In this document: piece after piece, positions 3,066 to 36,776 of the stretch
Layout of the letters: every line of letters begins with the position of its first letter
How positions within the stretch are numbered: the first letter of the stretch is position 1
Source: Akkermansia muciniphila
Lineage (GTDB): Bacteria; Verrucomicrobiota; Verrucomicrobiia; Limisphaerales; UBA9464
Assembly: GCA_945883815.1 (NCBI GenBank)
Contig: CAMCYJ010000027.1
Coordinates: forward strand, 1-36,776
DNA: 36,776 bases
Direction: 5' to 3'
Notes under the pieces: model-generated
What the model saw: only the letters and a program-made list of their open reading frames with translations
What the model was told of the DNA's origin: nothing
Databases searched by the model: none
Program-made: the position numbers and the translations under genes

Positions 3066-4520
3066 ATGCGGAGCCGCCTGTTGCCACTGACCTGCCTTTG
3101 GGTGGGTTTGGTTCTCACCGGCCAAACGAATCCGGCCGCGCCATTAGCTACCCCTCTTCCGGCTCCCAAAACCAACGCTGCCACAAACTCTCCCATTCCC
3201 CCGTCCACCGCAGCCGCACGGAAAGGCTTGCTGTGGAATGCCGCGACCGATCGCTACACAGCTTCAATCCCGGGATGGCCTCTTCAACGGGTGTTGGCAC
3301 GCCTGAGCGCTCAAACTGGTTGGCGGGTTTGGATTGAAGACGGCATCGAAACCCAAGCCCGCCCTCAAATTCGGGCCCAGTTCCGCAATTTGCCGGCCCG
3401 GGAGGCCTTGCCCCGGATCTTGGGTGGATTGAATTATTCACTGACCACCTCCAGCACTGGCCGCAGGGAACTCAAGGTTTTCGCCACCCAAGCCCGTTCC
3501 AGCACCCACGAAATCATGGCCGATGAGGGCGAAGGGGTGATCGCCAACGAGCTGATTGTTCGTTCCAAATCGGGTTCCAAACTGGATGCCCAACGATTGG
3601 CTGATCTGAAGGGCGCAACCCTCGTGGGCACCAATGGGGTGTCGGGGGCCTATCGGGTGCGTTTCGATTCGGACCTTCAGGCGGAAGATGCCAAGCGGAC
3701 GCTGAGCGCGGAGTCCGAAGACCTCGCCGTCGAGAACAACCAACGGCTGGAGGCTCCGGATGCTCCTATCCCAGTCGCCGGGCTCACTGCCCCGCCCCTG
3801 CGATTGACGGCCACCGTCCGGCCGGATGGAACCCGACGGGTCATCGCGCTCATCGACTCGGCACCGCAACCCTTGGCTCCGGCCTTTCAGTCGTTTCTCT
3901 TGCCCACCGTGGATGTGGTCGCTGGAACTTCCGCTTCGGGCAACCCGTCTCACGGAACCTCCATGGCCGAAGCGATGGTTCGCGGGCTCAGTGCGGGAAC
4001 CGCCGAGACCAGCACCCGTATTCAACCTTACAATGTCTATGGTGCTCAGGAGGCCGCCTCGACCTGGGATGTCGCTCGTGGCATCACGCAGGCGGCTCAA
4101 GACGGTTCCACCATCATCAACCTGTCGCTCGGAAGCGCCCAAGACAGCCCTTACCTGCGCGATGTCATCCAGCAGGTCAGCGATCAGGGAGCTTTGGTCA
4201 TCGCCGCAGCGGGCAACAACGGAAGTGCCGACCCGTTCTACCCGGCAGCCTATGACGCCGCCCTGGCAGTGACCGCCACCGGACGCTCCGGACAATTGAC
4301 GCCCTACGCCAACCGGGGAGGCTTCGTCGATCTGGGGGTGCCGGGTTCCACCGTGGTGCAAATGGACGGCCAGTCCTGGGTGGTCCAAGGCACCTCCGTG
4401 TCGGCCGCCTACGCCTCCGGGATGGCCGGTGCCTGGGCTCAAAACCCGCAGACCCCGCTTACCCCGATCCGCTCCAAGTTGATCGAAACCTTCCCGGTCC
4501 AAACCACCCCGAAGCCCTAG
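3066..4520 (+). CDS. S8 subtilisin-like serine peptidase with N-terminal STN-like domain
   Basis: Protein of 484 residues. Residues 1-25 look like a signal peptide. Residues about 58-140 (PGWPLQRVLARLSAQTGW, then LPAREALPRILGGLNY) have the pattern of a secretin/TonB short N-terminal (STN) domain. Residues about 158-230 resemble an inhibitor I9-like propeptide. The peptidase domain follows, with a triad read as D264 (VIALIDSA), H296 (PSHGTSMAE) and S444 (GTSVSAA), plus the oxyanion Asn in AAGNNGS (about N384). All key residues are present, so it is probably active in the envelope or outside the cell. The frame is open from 3030, but the ATG at 3066 starts the signal peptide. The STN-subtilase combination is unusual. 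The gene converges on the Ig-domain gene with 43 bases between them. Confidence 0.85.
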   Translation: MRSRLLPLTCLWVGLVLTGQTNPAAPLATPLPAPKTNAATNSPIPPSTAAARKGLLWNAATDRYTASIPGWPLQRVLARLSAQTGWRVWIEDGIETQARPQIRAQFRNLPAREALPRILGGLNYSLTTSSTGRRELKVFATQARSSTHEIMADEGEGVIANELIVRSKSGSKLDAQRLADLKGATLVGTNGVSGAYRVRFDSDLQAEDAKRTLSAESEDLAVENNQRLEAPDAPIPVAGLTAPPLRLTATVRPDGTRRVIALIDSAPQPLAPAFQSFLLPTVDVVAGTSASGNPSHGTSMAEAMVRGLSAGTAETSTRIQPYNVYGAQEAASTWDVARGITQAAQDGSTIINLSLGSAQDSPYLRDVIQQVSDQGALVIAAAGNNGSADPFYPAAYDAALAVTATGRSGQLTPYANRGGFVDLGVPGSTVVQMDGQSWVVQGTSVSAAYASGMAGAWAQNPQTPLTPIRSKLIETFPVQTTPKP

Positions 4521-10178: not shown

Positions 10179-11045
10179 TCAGAGCTCCCGCCAACTGCGG
10201 TGACGGTAGTTGTTCCAAACCCAACGGAAGTCCGGGTTGTTGGGACCACCACCAGCCCAATTGAAGCTGGAGATGCCCACGGCGGAATCCTTGGCGGCCT
10301 TGATGGTTCTGGCTTCGATCCATCGGTGCCCCTCGTAGTGGCCGTCCTGGAAGGAGAAGGTGCTGAAGTTGCCGTGGAAAATGGCGAAGGGATCGATCCA
10401 TCCCCGAGAATCGGTGCTCAGAACCCAGGTGCCCAGGTTGGAATTGCGCGGATCGGATTCCTCGATAAAGACGAAGGACTGGGACGGAGAATTGACCTCA
10501 GAAGCCTTGAGGTACGGAGGCTGCGAGGCTTCCCATCCAAGGATGCCGTTCATGCCGTTGGCCTTGGAGTAACTGTCGTAAGCCCATCCGGCCCCGGGAC
10601 GCCGTTTAGAACGCAAATCTCCCGGACAATGATAGGCGCCAAAGGCCGTGCAGTACTCCCACATCGGAGAGTTGGTCATGCCCCGTTGAACCCGCCTGAG
10701 GGCTTCTTCCAAGGTGATGCCATTGGCGATGTCCGGGACAGGGCCCTGCCAATACCCACCACCCGTGAGCGCCACCACGGCACCGGCTTTGTTCCTCCAA
10801 CCGTCGGTCGGAGCCAAAGAGTCGTTGTTGTCCATTGAGTACATCTGCCAGGCCAGAACCAACTGCTTCTGGTTGCTGGCGCAGGCGGCTCCCGTGGCTT
10901 TGGATTTTGCCTTGGCCAAGGCTGGCAAGAGCATGCCCGCCAAAATCGCGATGATGGCAATGACGACCAGCAACTCAATGAGGGTGAAGCCGGAATTGCT
11001 CAACCGACGGCCCGAGGTACGCAAAGAACACGCATCAAATTTCAT
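10179..11045 (-). CDS. Type II secretion-type pseudopilin (H-x9-DG family)
   Basis: Protein of 288 residues. A short positively charged leader is followed by the prepilin peptidase site and methylation motif [20 protein letters not shown] (cleavage after Gly), then [18 protein letters not shown], the usual continuation in verrucomicrobial and planctomycetal paralogues. The C-terminal [13 protein letters not shown] resembles the conserved DG motif of this family. Such genes occur in many copies in these phyla, and their individual roles are mostly unknown; they may form pseudopili or surface fibres. The ATG at 11045 was chosen over a TTG at 11063. No other secretion genes are adjacent. A strong terminator follows at 10094-10123. 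Confidence 0.9.
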
Positions 11046-11635
11046 GAACGGGGGGGGTGACAACTACGGTGAAACGGTAGACCCATTCTCGACCAAACGC
11101 CAAGCTCATATCAGCACCCCACTCGAAATGGTGTTCCACTGGGGAAATCGAAGTGGTGCCGTTCACGCCGCGGTGACCATGCCCACCTCGTGTGAGCCAT
11201 GGAAACCGCGACCTTCGATTCAGGGATGCTGCAGGGTCCCCGGTGAACGAGGCGTGTTCTTGATCTGCCGTGTGCCGCGATCCTCGCGGAGATCCCGAGA
11301 CCCCACCTTGGGCCGGGTTGTTGCTTTGGACTTCGGCTTCGGCTCAGGCGGCTTCTCAACGGCGTGGGGGGGACGAGGAGTGTTGTACAGTGGTTCGGTT
11401 TTCATGGGATTTTGTTTTTGAATGTTGTTTGGGGGTGAGTGGGTAGAAAGGGCTGAAAGAGGGCAAAAAGGGTGCTCAATCAATACGAACGGGACCAACC
11501 GGACTCATGATGAGGAGCCGCTGCGGGCGCGTTTCCAACTGAGCCATACGGTGGACGAAGGCTTGCCCTTTGAAGGAGTTTGTCTCCCCAAGAGCCCCAA
11601 TCTGAACCCGTTGCGTTGAGTTGCTCCATAACGGT
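11046..11635. other. Gene-poor stretch between pseudopilin and DUF883 genes
   Basis: The only candidate gene in these 590 bases is the small frame at 11220-11405. The minus strand around 11406-11440 is A-rich (caaacaacattcaaaaacaaaa when read that way), like a leader or promoter region. I see no tRNA, no clear terminator and no repeat. Confidence 0.35.
11220..11405 (-). CDS. Possible small basic protein, unrecognised
   Basis: Frame of 61 codons starting at an ATG preceded by an A-rich leader without a clear ribosome binding site. The product is rich in Pro, Lys and Arg (EKPPEPKPKSKATTRPK in the middle) and has no hydrophobic segment, so it would be a soluble, highly basic and probably disordered peptide. 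I recognise no family. It lies on the same strand between the DUF883 and pseudopilin genes. It could be a chance frame in GC-rich DNA; the A-rich leader is the main argument for it. Confidence 0.3.
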   Translation of the reverse strand: MKTEPLYNTPRPPHAVEKPPEPKPKSKATTRPKVGSRDLREDRGTRQIKNTPRSPGTLQHP

Positions 11636-23102: not shown

Positions 23103-24116
23103 TCAGCAGCCGATGCGGTAGTATTCCCGGTACCAAGCGACGAACCGCTCGATGCCCACCTCGATGGGAGTCGCCGGCTTGAAGCCCACGGCCTCGGTGA
23201 GGTCATCCACGTCGGCATAGGTTGCGGGAACGTCGCCCGCCTGCATGGGTAGTGAACGCTTCTCCACGGTCTTTCCGATGGTCTTTTCCAGACAATCGAT
23301 GACGTGCATCAACTCGGCAGGTTGGTTGTTGCCGATGTTGTAGATGCGGTAGGGAGCCGAACTGGTTCCCGGATCTGGCACAGCCCCGTTCCAGTCGGGG
23401 TTGACCGAAGCCACGCAGTCGCAGGTGCGGACCACGCCCTGGACGATGTCATCGATGTAAGTGAAATCACGCCGCATCTTGCCGTGGTTGAACACGTCGA
23501 TGGGCTGGCCGGCCAGGATCGCCTTCGTGAAGAGGAACATAGCCATGTCCGGGCGTCCCCAGGGCCCATACACCGTGAAGAATCGCAACCCCGTGGTCGG
23601 CAGGCGGTACAGGTGGCTGTAGGTGTGCGCCATCAGCTCATTGGCCTTCTTGGTGGCGGCATACAAGCTCAACGGGTGATCCACCGTGTGGTGGACACTG
23701 AAGGGCATGGTCGTGTTGGCTCCGTACACCGACGAGGAGGAAGCGTACACCAGGTGCTCCACGCCATGATGGCGACATCCCTCCAGGATGTTGATGAAGC
23801 CCACGAGGTTTGAATCCACGTAGGCGTGGGGATTTTGGATGGAATACCGCACGCCAGCCTGAGCGGCCAAGTGGATCACCCGCTGCGGCTTTTCTTGAGC
23901 AAATAGCGCCTCCATGCCGGCGCGGTCGGACAGGTCCAACTGATGGAAGCGGAATCCCGGACGCCCGCTGAGTCGGGCCAAACGGGCTTCCTTGAGGCTG
24001 ACATCGTAGTAGTCGTTGAGGTTGTCGAGCCCGATCACCTCGTCGCCCCGACCGAGAAGCATCTCGCAGGTGTGGAAACCGATGAAACCGGCCGCGCCGG
24101 TGACGAGGATTTTCAT
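23103..24116 (-). CDS. NAD-dependent UDP-sugar epimerase, probably UDP-glucuronate 4-epimerase
   Basis: Protein of 337 residues of the extended short-chain dehydrogenase family. NAD-binding GAAGFIGFH is at the N terminus. The catalytic Ser lies in YASSSSVYG, and Tyr and Lys in YAATK (Y152, K156). The [18 protein letters not shown] and [18 protein letters not shown] segments are characteristic of UDP-glucuronate 4-epimerases that make UDP-galacturonate for capsule, LPS or exopolysaccharide. The neighbouring ugd gene, which makes UDP-glucuronate, supports that substrate. A UDP-glucose type activity cannot be excluded. The ATG at 24116 is preferred over a TTG two codons upstream. Confidence 0.9.
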
Positions 24117-24182
24117 AAACAAGTCCGTCCTGATTCCAAAGGCTCACCGAACAACGCCCAAAGGTCGGCGCTGCGATACGAT

Positions 24183-25481
24183 TCAGCGCCCGACGCTGCG
24201 ATACAGGAAACCCAATTCCTTCATTTCAGCCGGATCCAGCAAATTCCGACCATCAAAGACAATCGGGGTGGCCATGGCGGCTTTGATCCTGGACCAATCG
24301 AGTCGACCGAACTCGGACCACTCGGTGGCAATGACCAGTGCATCGCACCCGGCCGCTACTGCTTCGGCCTCGGAGACGTACTCCACCGCCGAACCGGCTG
24401 CGAAAAACGACCGAGCCTTCTCCATGCCCTTGGGGTCATGGACCCGCAATCGCGCGCCATCGGCCAACATCCGGTGACAGAGATCGATCGACGGCGAATT
24501 GCGCACGTCATCGGTGTTCTGCTTGAAGGTCAGACCCAACACCCCGATATGCTTTTCTTTGAGCACCCAAAGCGTGTCGGTGATCTTCTGATGGAAGCGC
24601 TCCATCTGAGCACAATTGATCCGCTGAACCTCTTTGAGCAGCCGAAAATCATACCCCAACTGCTCGCTGATCTTGATGAAGGCGCTGAGATCCTTCGGGA
24701 AGCAGGACCCCCCGAAACCGAGACCCGCCTGAAGGAATCGAGTGCCGATACGTGCATCGAGGCCCATGCCTCGGGTGACCTCCTGGACATTGGCGCCACT
24801 GGCCTCGCAAATCACGGACAGCGCATTGGCGTAGCTGATCTTCAGCGCCAGGAAGGAATTGGCCGCGTGCTTGATGAGTTCAGCCGAGTTGGCGTCGGTC
24901 ACGATCATCGGCGCGCGGAAGGGTTCGTAAATCTCCCGCATCTTGGCGGCTGCCCGTTCACTGGAGGTCCCAATCACCACCCGATCGGGCTTCATGAGGT
25001 CGTCGATGGCGAAACCTTCCCGCAAGAACTCCGGATTGCTCACCACATCGAAATCGGCATCGGTCTTCCGGTAGCGCTTGATCGTCTCGGCCACCTTTTC
25101 GGCGGTTTTCACCGGAACCGTGCTCTTGTCGACGATGACCCGGTAACCCGAAAGACAGCCGGCAATTTCCCGGGCCACGCCCTCGATGAAACTCAAATCC
25201 ACCGAACCATCCGGCTGAGGCGGCGTGGGAACCGCGATAAACACCGCCTCGGAACCACCGACCCCCTCGGCCGTGGACGCGGTGAAACTCAACCGACCCG
25301 CCGCCACCGTCCGGTGCACCAAGGCTTCAAGGCCCGGTTCGAAAATGGGAATCTCCCCGCCCTGCAAACGCCGGACCTTTTCGCGGTCCGAATCGACGCA
25401 AATTACCCGGTGTCCGACGTCGGCAAAACAGGCTCCGGTAACCAGTCCCACATAACCGGTACCGATGATCGAAAGATTCAT
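24183..25481 (-). CDS. ugd: UDP-glucose 6-dehydrogenase
   Basis: Protein of 432 residues. It oxidises UDP-glucose twice with NAD to UDP-glucuronate. N-terminal NAD site IGTGYVGLVTGACFAD, central FLREGFAIDD and KHAANSFLALKISYANA segments, and catalytic Cys260 in GFGGSCFPKD are all present, followed by the UDP-binding C-terminal domain (LGLTFKQNTDDVRNSPS). It precedes the epimerase gene by 66 bases; the two would act in sequence to supply UDP-glucuronate and UDP-galacturonate. The TPR-protein gene lies 78 bases upstream on the same strand. Confidence 0.96.
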   Translation of the reverse strand: MNLSIIGTGYVGLVTGACFADVGHRVICVDSDREKVRRLQGGEIPIFEPGLEALVHRTVAAGRLSFTASTAEGVGGSEAVFIAVPTPPQPDGSVDLSFIEGVAREIAGCLSGYRVIVDKSTVPVKTAEKVAETIKRYRKTDADFDVVSNPEFLREGFAIDDLMKPDRVVIGTSSERAAAKMREIYEPFRAPMIVTDANSAELIKHAANSFLALKISYANALSVICEASGANVQEVTRGMGLDARIGTRFLQAGLGFGGSCFPKDLSAFIKISEQLGYDFRLLKEVQRINCAQMERFHQKITDTLWVLKEKHIGVLGLTFKQNTDDVRNSPSIDLCHRMLADGARLRVHDPKGMEKARSFFAAGSAVEYVSEAEAVAAGCDALVIATEWSEFGRLDWSRIKAAMATPIVFDGRNLLDPAEMKELGFLYRSVGR

Positions 25482-25559
25482 TCAGGATGGTACTATTGCC
25501 AAAACAAACTGTTCAGTGAGCAGTCGAAGCGAGTTTCAGGCAGGGCCTTCGAAAGAGCT

Positions 25560-26285
25560 TCAGGGGGCGGGCTTCACCGCGGCCTTGGCGGCGGGAGCAT
25601 TGGTGACCACCGGGGTCAATTCGGGATGAGCCTGGAGCAAAGCCGCCTTGCGGGCCGATGCATCTTGGGCCGTCATGCTGGTGGTGTCTTTCGATACCTC
25701 ATCATACAAGGCGACCGCCTCCGAATACTGCTTTTGCGATTCGTGAATCAGCGCTTTGGACAACCGGGCCTGAGCCACCAACGGATCGGTGGCAAAGCCC
25801 GAGATGAACCGAGCATAGGCAGCGATGGCCTCGACTGTTTTGTTCTGGGCGTCGAGGGCGCTGGCCACTCCGTAGGTCGCGGCACCACCCAACAGACTGT
25901 CTGCGTGAGCCTGATTGAAAGCCTCCAACGCCTTCTGAGCCTCGGCATACTTGCCGTCTTCGAACAGTTTGGTAGCAGCCAGGAATTCCGAACGCTCGGC
26001 AGCAGCTGTTCCGGAATGCTGGGAAGCGACTTTGGACAAGTCCGCGGCGCTCGGTCCGCCGGTCTTGGCGGCGGCACTCAGGGTGGACAAGAGGGCCTGA
26101 TTGGCTTCGGCCTCGGCAGAGGCTTGCACGTTCTTCTGGATGATCAGAGTCACTGCCGCCGCGGAAACCACAGCACAGCCGATGGCCAGAATCTTCTTAT
26201 TCTCCTCCAACCAGGTCAGGACAGACAATGTCAGGTCCGCCGAGGGCTGTTGCTCTTCGGGCTTGGGCTGAATCTGCAGGCTCAT
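25560..26285 (-). CDS. Membrane-anchored TPR protein (YfgM-like)
   Basis: Protein of 241 residues. A short N-terminal soluble part is followed by one membrane segment at about residues 31-50 (KILAIGCAVVSAAAVTLIIQ) and TPR-like helical repeats (for example ERSEFLAATKLFEDGKYAEAQKALEAF split over two helices). The C-terminal tail is Ala/Pro-rich. The layout matches YfgM-like ancillary translocon proteins and related TPR proteins, so an envelope-folding or assembly role is possible but unproven. The ATG at 26285 places the membrane anchor as in the family; the upstream frame begins at a non-family start. Confidence 0.75.
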   Translation of the reverse strand: MSLQIQPKPEEQQPSADLTLSVLTWLEENKKILAIGCAVVSAAAVTLIIQKNVQASAEAEANQALLSTLSAAAKTGGPSAADLSKVASQHSGTAAAERSEFLAATKLFEDGKYAEAQKALEAFNQAHADSLLGGAATYGVASALDAQNKTVEAIAAYARFISGFATDPLVAQARLSKALIHESQKQYSEAVALYDEVSKDTTSMTAQDASARKAALLQAHPELTPVVTNAPAAKAAVKPAP

Positions 26286-26399
26286 AAATTTTCTGAGATG
26301 ATTGAGATCAAGGCTGCAAACACAAGAGCGAACCCAAGGAGGCGCTGTCAGAGTCATCCCACAAGTTCGCAAGCCAGTCGCCCAGGCTCTGAGACACCC

Positions 26400-26447
26400 A
26401 AAAAAACCGAGACTCGCCAGAGAACTATTGAAGATCCAAGGGGTCTC
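26400..26447 (-). terminator. Possible terminator after the sialidase-family gene
   Basis: On the minus strand gagac and gtctc arms (26443-26447 and 26409-26413) could pair around a large loop and are followed by gg and seven Ts (26400-26406). It lies 34 bases beyond the stop at 26481. The stem is short, so confidence is low; the T-run is the strongest part. Confidence 0.3.
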
Positions 26448-26480
26448 CTCCCGGCTGGGGTGCGTGCAATAGAACGTTTC

Positions 26481-27707
26481 TCAAAACTCCGAAGATCGGA
26501 CCCAGGCTCGGTTGAACCGCGCATGGCGTATGGTTTCCCGGCCACCGAGCACTTCACTCCAAGTCGCGTGCAACCAACCGTCCCGCGTTTCGATCAAGGA
26601 TGGATAGGAAAACGAGCCCTGCCCCGGCAAAGCACCGGCCAATTGCCTCCGAATCGGCCAGGTGAACCCCTCGTCGTGGCTGATCCAGACTGCCAATGAA
26701 TGACGCCCGGATTCCAAATCGTTGCCGATAAAGATCCATTCACCCGATCGGAGCACCCTCACCTCGGCTCCGGAGCCCGGATTGGGGATTTCAGAATCCT
26801 CCGCCGGAGTCCACGTCTCTCCGCGATCCCAGGATTCGGCGCGCAGCAATCGCTGCGGAGGTGGACCATTGTCCCGCATCCAAGCCACCACCGAACCATC
26901 CCGGCGAACGGTCAGGCTCGGTTGGACATTCCCCAAACCCACGATGGGCGCGGATGGGCGCCACGACCGTCCCTGATCATCGGAAAGGGCCACCATCGAA
27001 ATGGAGTACCCGTCGTGGTACAAGGGCAGCATCCAACGACCCGCAACCGTCGTGAGATGAGCACGGGGCATCCAACCCAGACGACTGTAGAGATGATTGG
27101 TGGCTCCGAGGTGAATCCCGTCGATGAATTCGGAGACTTCCTTTCGTTGCTGCGCGGTCAGATCTGGTCGTGCCTGCTCCACGAGCAACCGAGGCAGATA
27201 AGCCTGAATGGCCTGAAGAAAGTCCTCACCCGGAGCCAACAGCACCGGCTGCATGGCATCCCAACGAACCGGCCCTCGGTTCCGCCACTGGGAACTGACC
27301 CGAGACTGCAACAAGGTGGATTCCCATGTGTTGGCCAAGATGGCCGCATGGAACAGCCACAACCGACCTTGCTGATCCACATGGAGCGACGGATTGCAGT
27401 CCGGAAAGCCCGGAGTATCCCACAAAGTGAATCGAGGCTCCCAAGACCGAGCCCCGGGGCGGCGACGAGATGCCTGAAGTTTCACGTCATTGGCCTGGCG
27501 TTCCCCAGACCCATTGAACCACGCGACAAACACAGTGCCATCCGGAGCTTCGACCATGCAGGAAGCGTGATTGTGTCGAGCTTCCGGAGCGAAAATGGGC
27601 TCGCTCACCAGAACCGGCAGCAAGCGATCTGATCCGAATGCTGGAAGGCCCAACACAATCCAGAGACCCAGGAAAAGTAGCGCTCCTCTCATGCTGGAAA
27701 ACTTCAT
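26481..27707 (-). CDS. Sialidase/BNR-repeat family secreted protein
   Basis: Protein of 408 residues. Residues 1-25 form a signal peptide. The body is a predicted six-bladed propeller of the BNR_2 sialidase type. Three Asp-box motifs are visible: SDDQGRSW (242-249), SWDRGETW (292-299) and SHDEGFTW (343-350). HNHASCMVEAPDGTVFVAWF near the N terminus matches exo-alpha-sialidase-like proteins common in PVC bacteria. Substrate is unknown; true sialic acid activity cannot be inferred because the arginine triad cannot be assigned with confidence. The ATG at 27707 starts the signal peptide (a second ATG is at 27692). It follows the rhodanese gene by 71 bases. Confidence 0.8.
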   Translation of the reverse strand: MKFSSMRGALLFLGLWIVLGLPAFGSDRLLPVLVSEPIFAPEARHNHASCMVEAPDGTVFVAWFNGSGERQANDVKLQASRRRPGARSWEPRFTLWDTPGFPDCNPSLHVDQQGRLWLFHAAILANTWESTLLQSRVSSQWRNRGPVRWDAMQPVLLAPGEDFLQAIQAYLPRLLVEQARPDLTAQQRKEVSEFIDGIHLGATNHLYSRLGWMPRAHLTTVAGRWMLPLYHDGYSISMVALSDDQGRSWRPSAPIVGLGNVQPSLTVRRDGSVVAWMRDNGPPPQRLLRAESWDRGETWTPAEDSEIPNPGSGAEVRVLRSGEWIFIGNDLESGRHSLAVWISHDEGFTWPIRRQLAGALPGQGSFSYPSLIETRDGWLHATWSEVLGGRETIRHARFNRAWVRSSEF

Positions 27708-27778: not shown

Positions 27779-28273
27779 TCATTGCGATGGGTTTGTTCCG
27801 GATTCGCCGTCGGTCACTGCTTTACCCGCCCAACGCCAAGCCATCATTCCCCGATGCAAATGAAGCACCGAGTTGAAGCCCAAGGACCGCAGCACCTCGA
27901 CGGCCTTCCGGCTGCGATACCCGCCCTGGCAATACACCAGAACGGGACGCGAGCGGTCCCACCGACTCAACTCCAGCTCGAAGGCTGGATCTCCCCAACT
28001 GATGCGTCGGGCACCCGGCAACATTCCCCGGGCGGTCTCACCCGGAGTCCGGACATCCAACACCTGAAGGTCGGGGTGTCCCGAAAGGAACTCCCACGCC
28101 TGCTGAGCACTCAGGTTCTTCGCCGTGGTGTCGGCCATTGGGGCAAAGAATCGGGAATCCCATAGGGATTCCCAGGCCCACCACGCAGCCGAAATCCCCG
28201 CCATGCCAAGAGCCATTCCGAGAATCACCCCATGGAATCGAGACAGGGCCCTGCGGTGTCCAGAACCGGTCAT
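27779..28273 (-). CDS. Membrane-anchored rhodanese-like protein
   Basis: Protein of 164 residues. An N-terminal membrane segment (about residues 14-35, GVILGMALGMAGISAAWW) is followed by a single rhodanese domain with LDVRTPGE and the active-site loop YCQGGYRS (Cys115). Rhodaneses carry sulfur as a cysteine persulfide; with this anchor the domain would face the periplasm or the cytoplasm, topology unclear. The ATG at 28273 overlaps the stop of the giant gene as ATGA, so translation is probably coupled. The sialidase-family gene follows. Sulfur or redox chemistry on exported proteins is a guess. Confidence 0.85.
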   Translation of the reverse strand: MTGSGHRRALSRFHGVILGMALGMAGISAAWWAWESLWDSRFFAPMADTTAKNLSAQQAWEFLSGHPDLQVLDVRTPGETARGMLPGARRISWGDPAFELELSRWDRSRPVLVYCQGGYRSRKAVEVLRSLGFNSVLHLHRGMMAWRWAGKAVTDGESGTNPSQ

Positions 28274-31200
28274 TGCGGAGTCACGTCCAGGACTCGGTAG
28301 AACCGCGTGGCGTTGGCATCGAATCCGGGTTCGTTGAGGACTGTGACCGTCTCCGCAGCCGACCAATCCCGGGAAGGACTCCAGACACCCAAAACATCCC
28401 CACGGTCCAACCGATAGCGCCGACCCACAGCCCCTCGAACCAGCAGCCGTAAGGATCCATCCGGGAGGAATTCCAGGAGCTCCAAGCGGGGAGCCAAAAA
28501 ACCTTGATTGGCGGCGCCGGGCGTTGGGTTGGTCTGGACCAAAGAGGCCGGGTCCCCATCTGGCTGGCGTGCCCAGGAACGATCATCGGCCGATCCCACA
28601 ACGGATCGGAAGAGGTCCACCACCTGGGGAACGCCCCCGAGGTCACGACCGAGCATCACCAAGAAACCGGCCCCCTCAATGGCTGGCAACCGGAACGAGG
28701 CATGCCATTCCGAGGCCGAAGACTGGGCCGGCTCGCCGTCGGCGAAGACCACGCGGAAACCACCGGGCTCGAGGACTCCCGAAGAAGGGAATACCCATCG
28801 ATTGGTTCCTTGTGCGTTCTCGGCCAAGAAAAGCCCTTCCAGAGAGACGGGTGATGAGCCCGTGTTGACCAACTCCAGCCAAGGCTCGAACTTGCCGCTG
28901 GCATCCACGAGTCCCCGAGTATTCCGTGGCAGCACTTCATTGATGCGCAGCGTTGGAAACTCCGGAAGTACGGCCGCCACGTTGTTCGGGGCACCCGGCG
29001 TTACGGTCGCACTGTCACCACCCTCGAGGGTCATCTCCAAGCCGAACACGATGTCGGAGCTTCCGAGATTGGATTGATGCACCTCGACCGCGAAGGTGTT
29101 TTCGCCGGGGATGAGAAACTGGGAGGGCAGAGTGAACGGCCCCTCGATGGCTGCATCGGCGACGGTGCGGTTGGCCAATGTCTCATGGGTTACCACGACA
29201 TCATCCATGCCGAGGAAATGCGCCTTGCGGCCATTGACCCAAAGCACATAGCCATCGTCCAGCATCACCCGGAATCGGACCGAAACGCCGGCCGTCAGGG
29301 TCGGGATCGTGACCTTCCGGCGGAAATAGTAGGCCGACTGCCCCAGCGTCAGCGCAGTCGTTTTGTTGGTTGCCACGGCCGCAGATTCCACAAAGTGGAG
29401 CCCACCACCGCTGGACCAGGTCGTGTCGTTGAAGCCTGGAGTCACCCAATTGGTGCCGCCAGCTGGCGCTCCATCCTGATAGTACTTCCAGACATCCCTG
29501 AAACTCAGGACCGCCCGACTGCCCTGAAACGCGGAGGCTTCCGTCCAATTTCCGAGCCGATTGCGATCCTGGCGGGCATCGATGAGCTGCAGCGAACGAT
29601 TGGGTCCCTGGGAGCCACTGGGCCAAGGGGCCAACCCATCGTAATCCACCCGGTCCAACTCTGATTCTGGAGAACCTGCAGCGGCAGGGCGGACCAGCCT
29701 CAAGGAATCGGCCACGGGGCCGAGAGTTCCCGTCCACTCGCCGAGAATTCCCGGAAACACGCCAAAAACCCCAGTAATGACGTTCCGACTGGCGACGACC
29801 AGCACTCGAGCTCCCGGAGCCATCGAACTTCCAACTGGGAAGGTGAAACTCAAATTGCTGCCGGTCAGCCGAAGTCCGGAAAGGTCCCACGTCGTCTGGG
29901 ATGAGCGGTTGAACATCTCGATGAACTCACCGCCGACCGGCGAAGACCGCCGCAGGATTTCCGAGAAGACCACCTTGAAGCGCGGACGCACGGAGATCTC
30001 GACGCGTTGCGTGGCGCTGAGGTTGCCCGGACCATCATCGGTCACACGGACGGAGACCGTCTGGGTGGAGGCCCCGGCATCGTCATTCGGGGTCCACTGG
30101 AACAAACCACTGATCGGATCGATGCTGGCTCCGGCCGGAGCACCGGCTTCCAGCGAGAAGCGCAAACTTTGCGCGGGCAAATCCGGATCCGAAGCCTGGG
30201 CCACGAAACTTACCAGTTGTCCCTCCTCCACCGTGATCGGGGCGATCGAAGCTATCGACGGCGGTTGGTTGTCCTCGGCGACTTCCATCAGGAGTTCACG
30301 AACAACCGACTGGGCATCCGGGGATCCGTCAATCGCCCGAATCAGGACGACCACGGTGGCAGGCCCTTGGGATTCGGAGGGAGTCCAGAAAACGACACCA
30401 CTCTGCGGTTCAAGAACCAGACCTTTCGGAGCGGGACCATCCACCTGGAACCGAACCGAAGTTCCTTCCGGATCCGTCGCAACCAAGTTCACAGACCATG
30501 CCTTGCCCTCGGTCAACTGCTGAGGTGCCAGTGGCTCGAACCGCGGCGGATTGTCGATTTCCACAACTCGAATCTGAACAACGCCGGAAACGGATAGGGA
30601 GGGCACTCCGTCATCCCGGACCCGATACGCCACGGTTTGAACTGTGCCACCGAAACTTTCATCGGGCGTCCAAGCAATGTGCCCATTGGGCGAGAGCGTC
30701 AGGCCCAACGGCGCAATCCCGTCCAGTTCGAAGGTCAGGGCCTGAACTGGACGATCGGCATCGGACGCCTCCAATCGGGCGAGAAACTCGACCCCCTCCT
30801 TGGCCTCCAGGGTCACCGCGGCAGGAAGAATGGGCGCCACATTGACCTCCGTGACAGTCAATTGGCCCCGCAGCAGGCTGGTCCGGACCGGCGAGCCATT
30901 GTCCGAGGCGCGAACCAGAAAACTGTAGACCCCCGGTCCCTCGTTCTCTGAAGGAAGCCATTGGAATCGGCCACTGTTAGGATCAATCACGGCACCTGGA
31001 GGACCATCGGCTCCCAATGCATAGGTCACCGTTTGCCCCTGATCCGGATCAACCGCGCCGACGGTGAAGGTGATCAACACCGCTTCCGGAGAACTCATGG
31101 GGGCTAGAGGCGCAAACACGGGAGGCCGGTTGCCGCCCACCAATGCGTTGGGCAATCCCGGAGTGGGCACTTCCATCGAGTACAACGGTGCGGGTGCCCC

Positions 31201-34200
31201 GTCTGGGAACCGGCCCAAGGAGACATCGTTGGTCTGGGCGCCGAAGGTAATCCCATCCACCAGGACACCCCGAGGGTCGAACAAACCAACCTGTTCCCCC
31301 TCCCGAGCCAGCGAGAAGTTGACGTGGAGATCGGCGGTGCCGGGTTGGTTCTGCCCGGTTTCATTGTCCGCCCAGATGCGAATGAATCCGCCGGCCGGAA
31401 TCGGATAACCTGATGGAATCCGGAACATCGACCCAACGGAATTGGTCAGACGGTCGGTCAGGTAAAACCCGCTCAAATCCACCGTGTTCGTTCCACCATT
31501 GTGAAGTTCAAACCAATCATCGTAGTCCCCATCGGCAGGATCCACCACGGTCACCCTGTTCTGGGCCATGATTTCATTGATCGTGACCCGAAAATCCGGG
31601 AACGACGCATCATTGGTGGCTCCGGGTGTGGGATAGAACAGAGTCCGAACACTCCGGGCCAAACCGTCCGGAATCAGGCCCAGAGGTCGGTCTGCCGGCA
31701 ACGAGCGCCAGGACAAATGATCCAAGACCGTGGCACCTGCTACTCCTCCATCGTCTCGCACCAAGGCCACAACCCCATTGGTGGGCGACAAGCGGAACGA
31801 GGTGTGCGGGATCCCGGAGGCAGACTCGCCCGGTTCCCCATCGGCCCAGATGGTGAGAAACCCTCCCGCCGGAACCACCGATCCGAACGGAAAGGCCCAA
31901 GCCAATCGATTCGTCCAGTTGTCGGTCAGGTAGTAGCCGCCCAAGTCCAGATCGTTGCTCCCCGTATTGAAAACCTCGAGGTACGGATCCCGATCACCGG
32001 CATTGTCCTTGGGACCGGAAACATTGGCGGGAAGCACCTCATTGATCCAAACCGGTGGAAAGGCCACCAACGCACCGGCAGCCGCGTTGGCACGACCCGG
32101 CGTCACTCGATTGACGGCGTTGGTCTCGGCAGCCATCCAATTGGCGACCCTCCAGGAAGATTGGGAGGCATCGATGCGTTGCAGCGATGAGCCTCGACCG
32201 TCCGCCACTGACGGCCAGGGCGGCGCATCGTCATAGCGCACTTCGCTAATGACCACTTCGTTGGTACCGGAGCCCCGGACCAACGACAAACGTTCTCCCC
32301 CGTTGTCCAAAGAGCCGGCGAATTCATCCAAGACTCGAACCCCTGAACCATAGGCGAGGACAAATGCCGCCCGATCTCGAACCAACACCCAATAGTTGGC
32401 CGGGGGAATGACGGAACCGTCCGGGAAGGTGTAATCCACCCCGTTGAGGCGGCATCCCGAAAGATCAAACGAGGTGGAAAGCGATCGGTTGAAGATCTCA
32501 ACAAAAGATGCACCCGGCTCCAGCGGATTGTAGTGGATCTCGTTGATCCCCACATAATCGGCCGCCTGCTGAATCACTCCCGTGTATCGAACCGTCACCG
32601 ATTTGGTCATCCCCGGCAGTGGCGTGCCATCGGCCCGGACCGCCACCAGATTCAGCACATTGGTGACACCGACCAGTGGCACACGAATGCGGAAGACCTG
32701 AGGGGAGGTCCACTCCAGCGGCATGGGAGTGCCGTTGACCTCGATGGCTGCAGTCGCAAACGGCGCCGTGCCATCGATGACCGCCACCGGAGTCGCGGAG
32801 GTGAAATTGTTCCCCCCATTGCTGGTGATGGCAAAGGCCTTGGCGTCAGAGGCCGTGATCTGGGTATTGATATAAGTCCGGCGTCCATTCAGATAGCTGC
32901 CGATGACGGAGGGCGAGGAAATGCCCGTGACCCCATTGAATGCCAACGCCGCACTTCGCGCGGTGAACTGCGGTTGGTATTGGGCGGAGGTCAAGGGACC
33001 CGAGACGGCATCTTGATAAGCCCGCCACGCCATGCGCTGGAAGATGGGCGTATCGAACATCACGTTGACCGCGCCATCATTGCCTCCAAAGAGACGTCGA
33101 TTGGTCGGGTCTCCAACTCCCAGAACCCAGTCCATGTCCCAGGGCAGGATTCGCCAACGACCTCCCGGCTGGAAATAAATGTACTTGTTCTGCGAATTGC
33201 CCGTTCCCCAAGTGTCCCAGTTCCCCAGGCACCCATCGAGGGCGAAGCTTCGCATCCATTGATTGATGTCGGCGATATTGAGCAGGTTCGGGACGAAGTT
33301 TGCGGTGCGATCATTGGCCGCGGTGACCATCGCGAAGAAGTTGGTGAAGTCGTTGGCTGTCGTGCCGGTGGGCCGCCCCTGCCAGGTGTAGCGGTACCTC
33401 GAGAGATTGTACTGGCCATTGGGATTCCGGTAGACGCCCAGATCAGCACCCGTCGCTTCAAACCCTCCGAAATCATCGAATTCGAAGGCGAAGGCCACCT
33501 TGCGCAAGTCACCAGAGCCGCCCTCCGGGTACCAGGCTTCGGCGTAATCATTGGAGGGCTGTTCCAAATCCTCGGACACGCTGCCGTACGGAGATCCGTT
33601 GCGGTAAAACTGCATATAGGCGGTGTTCAGGTAGGGCAACCCCATCTTCCGGGCGATCCAGTTGGCGATTTGGTTGCGCATCCGGGTCTCCTCTTCGCCA
33701 CCATTGCCGGTCAAGCCGAAGACCCGGTCCCGGGTTCCCAATAGCAGGTCGTCACCAGGGACCGTCAGGGAGTAATCGGCCTGTCCAGTGAAGGGACTTC
33801 CCTTGCGGCGGATGCCGGCGTTGTAAATCACGCGGAGATTACCATGGACGAGGGTGCAATCGCGGAAGGTGTTGTCGAGACCACCCACCAGCGACGAATC
33901 CTGACCATTGCTGAGCCAGGTGTTCTGGGAAGCGGTCAACCAGGCGTGGACATGGTTGAACGTGCCCGTGGGCACTGGATCTCCCCAGCGGATGTTGGCT
34001 CCACTGACAGCAGGCAACCCGGCGTAAACCGTTCCTGTCGGGAAAATGCTCGAAGCCGTCGAAGAGGCGTTGTCGAAGGCCTCGACAATGAACTGCACCA
34101 ACTCACCCGAACCCCGACCATTCAAGGTCCCCGACCAGATGCCGTCGCCCGCGAGAGCATCACCACCGGCACCGTCGTCGCGCATGGCCACCGACGAGAA

Positions 34201-36776
34201 AGCGGCCGTCTCGACGGTGCGAAAACGCAAACTCACCGAACTCAACCCGTCCGGATCGGAGACCCGAGCCGTGACGACCACGGGTTGCCCGGCTGCGGGG
34301 ACTGCCGGCGTGTGACGGACCAAATCAATGGAAGGACCGGCATTGTTGATCTTGCGGCTATTGGGCAAACCCGGTGTGCCCAGATTGCGGGGCACTTGCA
34401 GGCGGGCCGTCATTTCGAATCCGCCGCCGCGGGTCCGGAAGAGTACCTCGGGCCAACCTGCCTTCCAGCGAGCTCGCACCCGCAGGGTCATTCGGGATCC
34501 ATCATTCAGACCACCGGACATCGGAGCGCGGATGCAATTCCGGCCGGCATCCAGGTCGCCCGGCGCAATGACGCGTAAAACACGACTGCCCTCAAAGGCT
34601 CCCGTCGATTCGATCCGTGAGCGGCGGTGATGTCCCAAGAACGACCACCCATTGGCGGCGGTGCCCGAGCCCACCTCGAATCCACCATTGGTGACGATCA
34701 CGGTCCCGGCGGCATTGAGGACCTCCAACTGGTCCAGAAGGCATTCCCCGGCCCCCAACATGCCCAACTGCAAACGCGTGGCAGGCTGGGTACTGAAGCG
34801 GAGGGTGTCGGTCAGGGTGAACTGCTGCCACTCGCCCTTGGCCGTTTCATCCGAATCCGCCCAACTGGAAGCCCGAAGGGGATCGGCACGGGCATCCACC
34901 AATTCCATGGAGGAACCACCGCCGCCAGACCATTGCCCCCATCGACCCGCATCCCGATAATCCACCGAGGAAACTTCGATGTGGATCGTGTCGCTGGACA
35001 CCTGGCCCAGCGAGTTGGTGCTCAGGATTAGGTCTGGCTTGGACAGGGACAAACGCTCCCCGGAATTCCGCAGCGAACCCGACCAGTTGCCGAAGGAGTT
35101 GGCTGCGGTTAATTGAGCGTGGTTGGCCCGGAGGCGTTCCACATTCCGACCGACAACCACATACCCCCCGCCCGGAATCGAAGCTCCCGCCGGAAAGGTG
35201 TACGAGACACCTTGCGCCAAACGCCAACCGGCCAAATTCACCGGTTGGGAAGATCGATTGTGCAATTCAACAAATTCATCCGCGTCATCGTCCGAGATCG
35301 GATGGTACATGATCTCATTGAGCACCACCTCCTCGACCCGGCGCGCTGCATTGGCCTTTCCGGGGGTGAAAGATTCCAGACGCCTCCAACCCGAAGCCCC
35401 GTCCGGCGTGCGCCCCGAAGCCACCCCATTTTCCTGAGCCCCAAAGCGAACAGCATCGAGTACCCTCACTCCATTGGAACTGATGAACCAAACGGTCTCG
35501 CCAGCGGAGCTCAACCGAAAACCGAGAGCATTCTCGTCCAACACCAAGAAACCACCCGGTGCCAACACCGTACCGGCCGGGATCCGGAACCGATTGGTCT
35601 GAACATCATCGGTCAACACACAACCCGACAAGTCCGCCGGTTGGGTGCTGCCATTGTACAGTTCCAGAGTGTCGAGTTGAGGCAGGTCGGTGTGGGCCAA
35701 CACTTCATTGATCAACACTTTCGCAGCGGGATCCAATGGCGGCAGAGCGTCCATCTGACCGGGATTTCCACCGCGTACGGCGCTGATCGTCCACGCGCGA
35801 GGATCGGCCTCGCCATAACTGGGGTTGGCCAAGACCAAGGAGTGACCTGAACCATCGGCGGCGGTGGGCCAGGGATCGCGGGTTCCGAAATCGGTCACCA
35901 ACTTCTGAGCGCCCATTTCATCCCGCAACTCGAGCGGCCCTCCCGATCCATTGAAGCTGCCCGAATAAGGGCCCAAAACATCCCGAATCCCATAGCGTTC
36001 CATCAAGGCGGCCGGATCTTTGGCCACGACCACAAACTGACCGGCCCCCAGTCGGAATCCCTCCGGAAACTGGAAGCGGACCGTCCCTTCAATCTTCCAG
36101 CGGGAAAGGTCCTCGAACACATCCCCCGCATTGTACAGTTCCACGAACTCCAACCCCGGGGTCCCGGGAAGGGTCTGCGGGTGGTACTGGATTTCGCTGA
36201 AGACGATCCGCGTGCGCCGACTGGAAAGTCCCAACCCTTCCCGTTGAGGCTGATACGTCACCTCATTGGCTCCGGAAACCGTACCGTAGTCGCGGAACCG
36301 CACCACCGCCACGGCATTGGTATCGCGTCCCGCGACGGTCAGACCCACCTGCACCGAACTGGGCATGGAAAGGGTCGTGGACCCCAGCGCGGTCCAGTTG
36401 GTGCCGTCGAAGGAACCAAATCCGGAGAGCGAAGCCCCGTCGCGTCGCAGTCGCAGCCATGTCTGGGGGTAATTCACCGGATACCCACCTCGCGGGGCGG
36501 TCATCGGGGCGTTGGCACCGCTGAACGGGCGATTGCGAAAGAAGCAACCCACGGAGGGCGATCCGGCAAAGGCTCCGGCGAAGGGCGCATTGGCCTCGAT
36601 TCCGGAGCGGACGACCAATCCGGCCGTCATGTAAGGATCGGTGACGGTCAACCCGTCCACGCGAACCCGAAGATCAAAATTTCCAGTCAGCGACTGTGCG
36701 GCAAAGCCGGCCGAGTCGGTCGTTCCACTGATGTCGCCACCGCGGGCCGAGATATCAAACCCGCCTCGGGCAACCC
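28270..36776 (-). CDS. Giant secreted lamin-tail/CotH/cadherin-like protein, 5' end beyond window
   Basis: At least 2834 residues; the frame is open through the right edge, so the N terminus and signal peptide are missing. Numbering from the GTG codon at 36660, the parts are: a lectin/laminin-G-like beta domain (1-140); lamin-tail domains starting near 152, 314, 444, 1368, 1535, 1690, 2228 and 2569, each opening with an INE- or SEI-like motif; a CBM-like region (610-760); a Y-like domain (775-870); a CotH kinase-like domain (about 935-1265) with GNWDTWG and LPWDMDW; four cadherin/He_PIG-like repeats (1845-2225); a jelly-roll-like domain with DDGYVLWVNG (2385-2545); and a C-terminal domain ending RFYRVLD. 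CotH kinases phosphorylate proteins outside the cytoplasm in spore formers and effector systems. Role here unknown, perhaps surface attachment or matrix. The stop overlaps the rhodanese start. Confidence 0.85.
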   Translation of the reverse strand, partial: VARGGFDISARGGDISGTTDSAGFAAQSLTGNFDLRVRVDGLTVTDPYMTAGLVVRSGIEANAPFAGAFAGSPSVGCFFRNRPFSGANAPMTAPRGGYPVNYPQTWLRLRRDGASLSGFGSFDGTNWTALGSTTLSMPSSVQVGLTVAGRDTNAVAVVRFRDYGTVSGANEVTYQPQREGLGLSSRRTRIVFSEIQYHPQTLPGTPGLEFVELYNAGDVFEDLSRWKIEGTVRFQFPEGFRLGAGQFVVVAKDPAALMERYGIRDVLGPYSGSFNGSGGPLELRDEMGAQKLVTDFGTRDPWPTAADGSGHSLVLANPSYGEADPRAWTISAVRGGNPGQMDALPPLDPAAKVLINEVLAHTDLPQLDTLELYNGSTQPADLSGCVLTDDVQTNRFRIPAGTVLAPGGFLVLDENALGFRLSSAGETVWFISSNGVRVLDAVRFGAQENGVASGRTPDGASGWRRLESFTPGKANAARRVEEVVLNEIMYHPISDDDADEFVELHNRSSQPVNLAGWRLAQGVSYTFPAGASIPGGGYVVVGRNVERLRANHAQLTAANSFGNWSGSLRNSGERLSLSKPDLILSTNSLGQVSSDTIHIEVSSVDYRDAGRWGQWSGGGGSSMELVDARADPLRASSWADSDETAKGEWQQFTLTDTLRFSTQPATRLQLGMLGAGECLLDQLEVLNAAGTVIVTNGGFEVGSGTAANGWSFLGHHRRSRIESTGAFEGSRVLRVIAPGDLDAGRNCIRAPMSGGLNDGSRMTLRVRARWKAGWPEVLFRTRGGGFEMTARLQVPRNLGTPGLPNSRKINNAGPSIDLVRHTPAVPAAGQPVVVTARVSDPDGLSSVSLRFRTVETAAFSSVAMRDDGAGGDALAGDGIWSGTLNGRGSGELVQFIVEAFDNASSTASSIFPTGTVYAGLPAVSGANIRWGDPVPTGTFNHVHAWLTASQNTWLSNGQDSSLVGGLDNTFRDCTLVHGNLRVIYNAGIRRKGSPFTGQADYSLTVPGDDLLLGTRDRVFGLTGNGGEEETRMRNQIANWIARKMGLPYLNTAYMQFYRNGSPYGSVSEDLEQPSNDYAEAWYPEGGSGDLRKVAFAFEFDDFGGFEATGADLGVYRNPNGQYNLSRYRYTWQGRPTGTTANDFTNFFAMVTAANDRTANFVPNLLNIADINQWMRSFALDGCLGNWDTWGTGNSQNKYIYFQPGGRWRILPWDMDWVLGVGDPTNRRLFGGNDGAVNVMFDTPIFQRMAWRAYQDAVSGPLTSAQYQPQFTARSAALAFNGVTGISSPSVIGSYLNGRRTYINTQITASDAKAFAITSNGGNNFTSATPVAVIDGTAPFATAAIEVNGTPMPLEWTSPQVFRIRVPLVGVTNVLNLVAVRADGTPLPGMTKSVTVRYTGVIQQAADYVGINEIHYNPLEPGASFVEIFNRSLSTSFDLSGCRLNGVDYTFPDGSVIPPANYWVLVRDRAAFVLAYGSGVRVLDEFAGSLDNGGERLSLVRGSGTNEVVISEVRYDDAPPWPSVADGRGSSLQRIDASQSSWRVANWMAAETNAVNRVTPGRANAAAGALVAFPPVWINEVLPANVSGPKDNAGDRDPYLEVFNTGSNDLDLGGYYLTDNWTNRLAWAFPFGSVVPAGGFLTIWADGEPGESASGIPHTSFRLSPTNGVVALVRDDGGVAGATVLDHLSWRSLPADRPLGLIPDGLARSVRTLFYPTPGATNDASFPDFRVTINEIMAQNRVTVVDPADGDYDDWFELHNGGTNTVDLSGFYLTDRLTNSVGSMFRIPSGYPIPAGGFIRIWADNETGQNQPGTADLHVNFSLAREGEQVGLFDPRGVLVDGITFGAQTNDVSLGRFPDGAPAPLYSMEVPTPGLPNALVGGNRPPVFAPLAPMSSPEAVLITFTVGAVDPDQGQTVTYALGADGPPGAVIDPNSGRFQWLPSENEGPGVYSFLVRASDNGSPVRTSLLRGQLTVTEVNVAPILPAAVTLEAKEGVEFLARLEASDADRPVQALTFELDGIAPLGLTLSPNGHIAWTPDESFGGTVQTVAYRVRDDGVPSLSVSGVVQIRVVEIDNPPRFEPLAPQQLTEGKAWSVNLVATDPEGTSVRFQVDGPAPKGLVLEPQSGVVFWTPSESQGPATVVVLIRAIDGSPDAQSVVRELLMEVAEDNQPPSIASIAPITVEEGQLVSFVAQASDPDLPAQSLRFSLEAGAPAGASIDPISGLFQWTPNDDAGASTQTVSVRVTDDGPGNLSATQRVEISVRPRFKVVFSEILRRSSPVGGEFIEMFNRSSQTTWDLSGLRLTGSNLSFTFPVGSSMAPGARVLVVASRNVITGVFGVFPGILGEWTGTLGPVADSLRLVRPAAAGSPESELDRVDYDGLAPWPSGSQGPNRSLQLIDARQDRNRLGNWTEASAFQGSRAVLSFRDVWKYYQDGAPAGGTNWVTPGFNDTTWSSGGGLHFVESAAVATNKTTALTLGQSAYYFRRKVTIPTLTAGVSVRFRVMLDDGYVLWVNGRKAHFLGMDDVVVTHETLANRTVADAAIEGPFTLPSQFLIPGENTFAVEVHQSNLGSSDIVFGLEMTLEGGDSATVTPGAPNNVAAVLPEFPTLRINEVLPRNTRGLVDASGKFEPWLELVNTGSSPVSLEGLFLAENAQGTNRWVFPSSGVLEPGGFRVVFADGEPAQSSASEWHASFRLPAIEGAGFLVMLGRDLGGVPQVVDLFRSVVGSADDRSWARQPDGDPASLVQTNPTPGAANQGFLAPRLELLEFLPDGSLRLLVRGAVGRRYRLDRGDVLGVWSPSRDWSAAETVTVLNEPGFDANATRFYRVLDVTPQ

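Follow-up and report, generated by a model that had tools for sequence, protein, structure and literature searches.

Introduction

Subtilases of the S8 family are made as zymogens in which the cut falls between propeptide and protease, and other S8 propeptides work as intramolecular chaperones. The N0 domains of known proteins, on the other side of the comparison made here, are described in one study as parts of outer-membrane transport or signalling assemblies (PMC3093366). Two small proteins of this type reportedly serve their secretins: TcpQ is required for the secretin to be stable and correctly located, BfpG for it to form multimers (PMC4971541). A paper on a fusion between a domain of this kind, the STN domain of secretins and TonB-dependent receptors, and a subtilase was not found in the open-access literature, subscription journals and preprints being outside the scope of the search.

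Here we describe such a fusion in a stretch of 36,776 nucleotides, called the window below, which is contig CAMCYJ010000027.1 (positions 1 to 36,776, forward strand) of assembly GCA_945883815.1, deposited as Akkermansia muciniphila and placed by GTDB in the order Limisphaerales, family UBA9464. An earlier note made from the letters of the window had proposed an STN-like domain ahead of a subtilase propeptide and, from this, a protease docked on or regulated by an outer-membrane secretin or transport system. We tentatively lean, at somewhat below an even chance, towards a different role, in which the gene product is the zymogen of an exported subtilase whose STN domain binds a periplasmic partner and is lost from the protease on maturation.

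Results

Layout of the gene

Positions 3066-4520 (+) form an uninterrupted reading frame that codes for 484 residues and ends in a stop codon. Sequence comparison confirms that it encodes a predicted S8 subtilase precursor with an STN/N0-like domain ahead of the propeptide, and this pairing of S8 and STN brings together, in a new way, two domains of known kinds. The features are as follows.

3066..4520, + strand: whole gene, with likely Sec-type signal, STN/N0-like domain, fervidolysin-type propeptide and S8 catalytic domain
3066..3125, + strand: likely signal peptide, residues 1 to about 20, cleavage site judged by eye
3228..3515, + strand: STN/N0-like domain, about residues 55-150 with core 55-140, from family profiles and domain model
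3519..3749, + strand: I9/fervidolysin-type propeptide, residues 152-228, Pfam match 152-218
3750..3839, + strand: poorly conserved linker with expected autoprocessing, residues 229-258, cleavage inferred
3840..4481, + strand: S8 subtilase domain, residues 259-472, Pfam Peptidase_S8
3855..3857, + strand: catalytic Asp264, D in 52/52 aligned homologues
3951..3953, + strand: catalytic His296, H in 52/52 aligned homologues
4215..4217, + strand: Asn384, presumably the oxyanion-hole residue by analogy with subtilisin, N in 52/52 aligned homologues
4395..4397, + strand: catalytic Ser444, S in 52/52 aligned homologues

The alignment with close homologues begins at residue 1 of the window protein. Of the 52 family members, 45 have a hydrophobic stretch at the N-terminus and 4 a lipobox-like motif. 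When the window protein was scanned with Pfam at E 10, only the S8 and propeptide domains were found; the Secretin domain (PF00263) had no match, and a receptor plug and barrel following the STN domain were absent.

The catalytic domain matched Peptidase_S8 at 1.4e-19 (70.9 bits against a cut-off of 21.8, residues 259-472), and the intact D-H-S triad read by the earlier note holds throughout the family. Because the three triad residues and Asn384 are unchanged in all 52 aligned homologues, the protease is, as judged from sequence, very probably active. Directly ahead of the catalytic domain, residues 152-218 matched Fervidolysin_NPro-like (PF22148) at 4.6e-4, with 21 bits at a cut-off of 21, and it is this match that corresponds to the I9-like propeptide proposed before. 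The solved structures nearest in sequence to the window protein are thermitase and AK.1 protease. In the family alignment the residue two after the catalytic Asp is variable and the Ser motif reads like GTSxATAY, Gly and Pro being usual at those positions in classical subtilisins. The full-length AlphaFold model is poor (pLDDT 42.6), with block means of 69-87 for residues 161-230, and its top fold match is unprocessed pro-subtilisin E.

Identity of the N-terminal domain

The window sequence by itself gives no significant STN match. Neither the whole protein nor residues 50-230 matched STN in Pfam, and the isolated residues 50-155 and 54-150 reached E 0.14 and E 0.1, respectively, with 12.5-12.8 bits against a cut-off of 28.4; the direct search of the N-terminal residues with the STN model thus did not bear out the assignment for this single protein. 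It is the family that settles the identity. STN was matched by 23 of 40 diverse homologous N-termini (best 5e-4, Pfam, threshold E 10), while every other Pfam family was matched by at most 2 of the 40. The remaining 17 members had no listed STN match at E 10, HMMER filters dropping most weak ones. With NCBIfam models at a threshold of E 1, TIGR02516 (type III secretin SctC) was matched by 8 of the 40 N-termini (best 4.4e-5), two HofQ models by 5 and 5 and PilQ by 3, these being weaker, and five further families had 1 to 3 weak matches each.

A profile named A1 was built from these 40 N-termini (40 of the 52 aligned rows). Its first match in the PDB was chain R of 9u5s at E 2.5e-4, followed later by PilQ (0.0057 and 0.028) and GspD N0 (0.19), which are not significant alone. 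The entry title of 9u5s names the BfpBG complex of the type IVb pilus, and by this title and its size chain R is presumably BfpG; a paper on 9U5S was not found in the open-access literature. Residues W86 and F106 are invariant in 40/40 STN rows, and 9u5s chain R carries W and F aligned to both. These two look like core residues and would therefore mark no binding surface.

A1 was then compared with 286 genomes of the class Verrucomicrobiia, of which 60 had a match, 51 in the window's own order and 9 outside it; the genomes listed without an A1 match include one of the own order (G218). There were 10 A1 matches outside the order. Six are secretins over the Secretin cut-off, and for the other four the best Pfam match was a sub-cut-off STN (E 1.1e-4 to 0.045). 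For a direct comparison, a set of 24 STN regions was picked by the Pfam STN model in the class (25 loci minus L213, which is the same gene as L118). In this single comparison, hhalign aligned A1 with the 24 regions at a probability of 87.5 and E 3.6e-6, compared with probabilities of 0.06-4.56 for 30 column-shuffled A1 profiles, 0.43 for the reversed profile and 0.52 for the propeptide region.

The best model of the domain came from the orthologue L033, which is 92% identical to the window domain, and had a pLDDT of 75.8, the other four models having 47-54. In the PDB, the best Foldseek matches of this model were to a chain of the Dot/Icm system, to LspD, a secretin of Legionella, and to PilQ and GspD N0, at E 5e-3 to 1e-2, the best value being 5.3e-3 and none under 0.001. 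VIA-align gave Z values of 7.9 for PilQ, 7.8 for FpvA, 7.7 for GspD, 7.5 for DotD, 7.1 for PupA and 7.0 for FecA, and the tool cautions that values below 8 may reflect no more than a shared arrangement. Phage-baseplate chains were mixed among the matches of both tools, one with a VIA-align Z of 7.4, and anti-sigma C-terminal domains were also among the fold matches. Similar values, from DALI, have been listed between accepted N0 domains, phage gp44 included, at 5.0-7.3 (PMC3093366). Taken together with the sequence profiles, the modelled fold fits kinship with STN domains.

It could be argued that the STN resemblance is due to chance and that the N-terminus is an unrelated domain. The sub-threshold score of the window protein, the 17 family members without a listed match even at E 10 and the modest best Foldseek value would all agree with this. 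However, the Pfam, PDB, class-wide profile, fold, hhalign and NCBIfam results point to one superfamily, whereas the hhalign controls do not. We therefore consider chance very improbable. With the family, genome-search, hhalign and NCBIfam results in agreement, a chance match was rejected, and the relationship of the N-terminal domain to secretin N0/STN domains is, at the level of sequence comparison, regarded as confirmed. The domain spans about residues 55-140, close to the region of residues 58-140 named in the earlier note.

The searches also returned proteins of other layouts. Two short proteins of the own order, L128:334-1056 (-) and L129:752-1411 (+), carry the STN-like domain without a protease, so that the domain also occurs on its own; by eye, one has an acidic, EF-hand-like stretch, and the other has a Gly-rich tail. 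A third match, L130:1021-2229 (+) in genome G348, has a TAA inside the matched frame and is possibly a decaying copy or has a different start. In other orders, L119, L122, L123 and L127 show a sub-cut-off STN after a hydrophobic stretch and, by eye, a similar charged C-terminal part; they are apparently a family of their own.

Conservation, spread and origin

Homologues of the window protein were matched at E 0.001 or better in 92 of 96 genomes, its own included, and at 1e-40 or better in 88 of 96, the eight genomes short of the latter being G006, G012, G030, G032, G044, G046, G048 and G079. There is usually one strong copy per genome, G084 having two. A protein 86% identical to that of the window is encoded at L031 (CAMATE010000180.1). 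Mean pairwise identity among 40 sequences was 41% for STN, 42% for the propeptide and 43% for S8, so that the STN part is about as conserved as the protease, and it fell to 16% in the signal/linker and 25% in the propeptide-protease linker (residues 229-256).

The combination of STN with Peptidase_S8 in further proteins, for which the earlier note had suggested a search, was found across the order and in a second clade from other classes of the phylum, whose members have the same domain order and stand among the high-ranking homologues. Since these rows were taken from the top of a search with an STN-containing profile, they give no frequency estimate. The STN profile matched 22 of 23 second-clade proteins; with filters off and a nominal 1,000 sequences, the domain E-value was 0.001 or better in 12 of the 22 and 0.27 in L177, the weakest. 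The remaining protein, L194, had been labelled STN-less from the profile, an STN-like domain being visible in it by eye only. As judged by eye, this clade has not conserved W86. Ten members were scanned with Pfam: all ten had propeptide and S8, with the propeptide over its cut-off in each, two matched STN (7e-4 and 0.26) and one FecR_C (9.1e-4), these three matches being below cut-off. In 22 other S8 proteins from the homologue searches, the N-terminal profile had no match.

A tree was calculated from 87 S8 domains, leaving out 8 near-duplicates among the 52 order rows and the weak L199 and L200. A branch (99/95) set the order members apart from the other rows, the second clade grouped together with L194 (100/99), and 20 STN-less subtilases formed another group (98/86). 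With the old label of L194, the tree tool counted two changes for each of the two labels concerned, and with L194 relabelled one branch separates STN-bearing from STN-less rows. This sequence tree, which has no outgroup, is compatible with one origin of the STN-subtilase combination.

The conservation pattern bears on the main rival to our reading, in which the STN domain acts inside the molecule only, enlarging the pro-region and aiding propeptide folding and inhibition while binding no partner. Other S8 propeptides are chaperones of this intramolecular kind, in this family STN goes together with the propeptide and is about equally conserved, and no partner gene is linked to the subtilase. 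On the other hand, a propeptide does not require STN, since its region is still matched by many relatives that lack this domain, and known N0 domains are parts of transport or signalling assemblies of the outer membrane (PMC3093366). We regard a purely intramolecular role as possible, yet on the unlikely side.

Gene neighbourhood

Two neighbours of the subtilase gene in the window have the following positions.

1554-2906, - strand: DUF1552 gene, E 2.4e-109, divergent from the subtilase, starts about 160 bases apart
10179-11063, - strand: prepilin-like protein with prepilin-like motif, 6 kb downstream of the subtilase

The DUF1552 gene is the only recurrent neighbour with a fixed place in the order and is limited to the own bacterial family. 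It was found upstream on the other strand in 11 of 41 order loci, all of that family, lying within 350 bases of the subtilase match in 10 of the 11 and about 1.1 kb away in L064, and a twelfth, weaker match lies 5 kb downstream in L060. Its absence at L057, L065 and L066 means nothing, because little upstream sequence is available there. Downstream of the subtilase lies an Ig-domain protein on the other strand. Among the order loci 7 of 41 have a prepilin-like gene in their flanks, and among the second-clade loci 3 of 20 do, at places that are scattered except among close relatives; such genes are common in these bacteria, and we therefore give them little weight. A thioredoxin-like gene recurred in four related second-clade loci and one other. 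The neighbour clusters were built from raw six-frame ORFs, which are full of antisense shadows, and were judged by eye. No conserved neighbour in the order or second-clade loci points to a partner, and the neighbourhood was set aside as a route to one.

Farther along the window, 28273-36660 (-) is an open frame of 2,796 aa for a giant surface-type protein; it matches CotH kinase and contains putative Ig domains and eight stretches of Lamin Tail Domain. An open frame of 918 aa at 23943-26699 (+) had no Pfam match at 1e-5; it overlaps shorter opposite-strand frames and may be a shadow.

Candidate partners in the genome

A secretin match was present in 58/58 order genomes searched, and in the own genome five secretins score above the cut-off. 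In the flanks of the 41 order loci and 20 second-clade loci, a secretin domain was not found near the gene; as a positive control, the same purpose-built secretin model recovered 5 of the 6 own-genome stretches L082-L087. The A1 profile had no match in six own-genome secretin stretches, which include only 1,500 bases on each side, so that N-termini may be missing. For six genomes from other orders the A1 search gave a secretin but no STN-subtilase match, which indicates that secretins do not need the STN-subtilase.

These results, together with the domain order, bear on the proposal of the earlier note, taken here to mean that STN keeps the active protease attached to a secretin or transporter or under its control. 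In favour of that proposal, the related domains belong mostly to outer-membrane complexes and are largely secretin-associated, and secretins are present throughout the order genomes searched. Against it, no secretin gene lies beside the subtilase in the 61 loci, the own genome has no STN match at E 0.001, no FecR_C match and a single FecR match, and STN is on the propeptide side of the expected cut. Because STN precedes the propeptide, it should leave with it on canonical maturation, and its loss would favour a role in the precursor over lasting attachment of the protease. A permanently docked protease thus appears improbable to us, and a docking or tethering domain on the zymogen side is favoured.

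A TonB/FecR partner is likewise disfavoured. In this version STN would contact a FecR-like transducer as in FecA or PupA, and the protease would take part in regulated proteolysis. The fold matches to FecA, PupA, FpvA and the anti-sigma C-terminal domains would fit, as would the one sub-cut-off FecR_C match among the 10 second-clade members scanned. Yet at E 0.001 the own genome had no STN and no FecR_C match and one FecR match, and no fixed neighbour recurs across the order. We rate such a signalling role as quite improbable.

Discussion

For the preferred reading, a zymogen with an STN domain that binds a periplasmic partner, the following course of events can be proposed. After Sec export, the folded propeptide would keep the protease inhibited, as happens in other S8 zymogens. 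Placed at the mature N-terminus, the STN domain would bind its periplasmic partner and so hold or place the zymogen. A cut at the junction of propeptide and catalytic domain would then free the protease from the STN-propeptide half, which may remain as tether and inhibitor. The likeliest class of partner would be the periplasmic part of a secretin assembly of the type II or type IV pilus-like kind, because this is where the related domains of secretins, BfpG and DotD are located; it is the least certain step. A more specific form seems unlikely to us as stated: a family of envelope proteases would use a secretin-type N0 domain to address its zymogen, the STN-propeptide half inserting into the N0 layer of a secretin or a ring like it, silencing the protease there and releasing it on cleavage.

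If this specific form is true, the N0 fold would have a use beyond the structural and signalling components of outer-membrane machines, and there would be a way to couple protease activation to export. Should STN target the zymogen to a secretin-like complex, this would reveal the site at which a protease of most genomes in the order is kept and becomes active. The range of known N0 carriers would also be widened by a zymogen protease that is widely conserved and has an N0-type domain.

Among the known systems, the secretin N0 domains (GspD, PilQ, SctC/EscC; STN PF07660, type_II_gspD_N0 PF21305) are related to residues 55-140 by sequence profile and by the modelled fold. In secretins, however, the N0 domain is followed by the secretin domain, whereas in the window protein a protease follows instead. 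The STN domains of the TonB-dependent receptors FecA, PupA and FpvA resemble the modelled domain in fold (Z 7.0-7.8) and have the same N-terminal place in the mature protein, but these receptors have a barrel, which the window protein lacks, and its genome is without a FecR_C match. The small N0-type proteins (BfpG/TcpQ, DotD and Xanthomonas VirB7) include what is presumably the best solved sequence match overall, 9u5s chain R, and DotD, which reaches a Z of 7.5. In contrast to the window protein they have no enzyme domain and belong to pili or secretion systems. The fervidolysin-type and other S8 zymogens (PF22148 with PF00082; pro-subtilisin E, thermitase, AK.1 protease) likewise have a propeptide and then a catalytic domain, and the D-H-S triad and the GTS motif are common to them and the window protein. 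The Asp and Ser motifs of the family differ from those of classical subtilisins in that Gly and Pro are absent, and to the zymogen plan of these proteases the window protein adds an STN/N0 domain before the propeptide.
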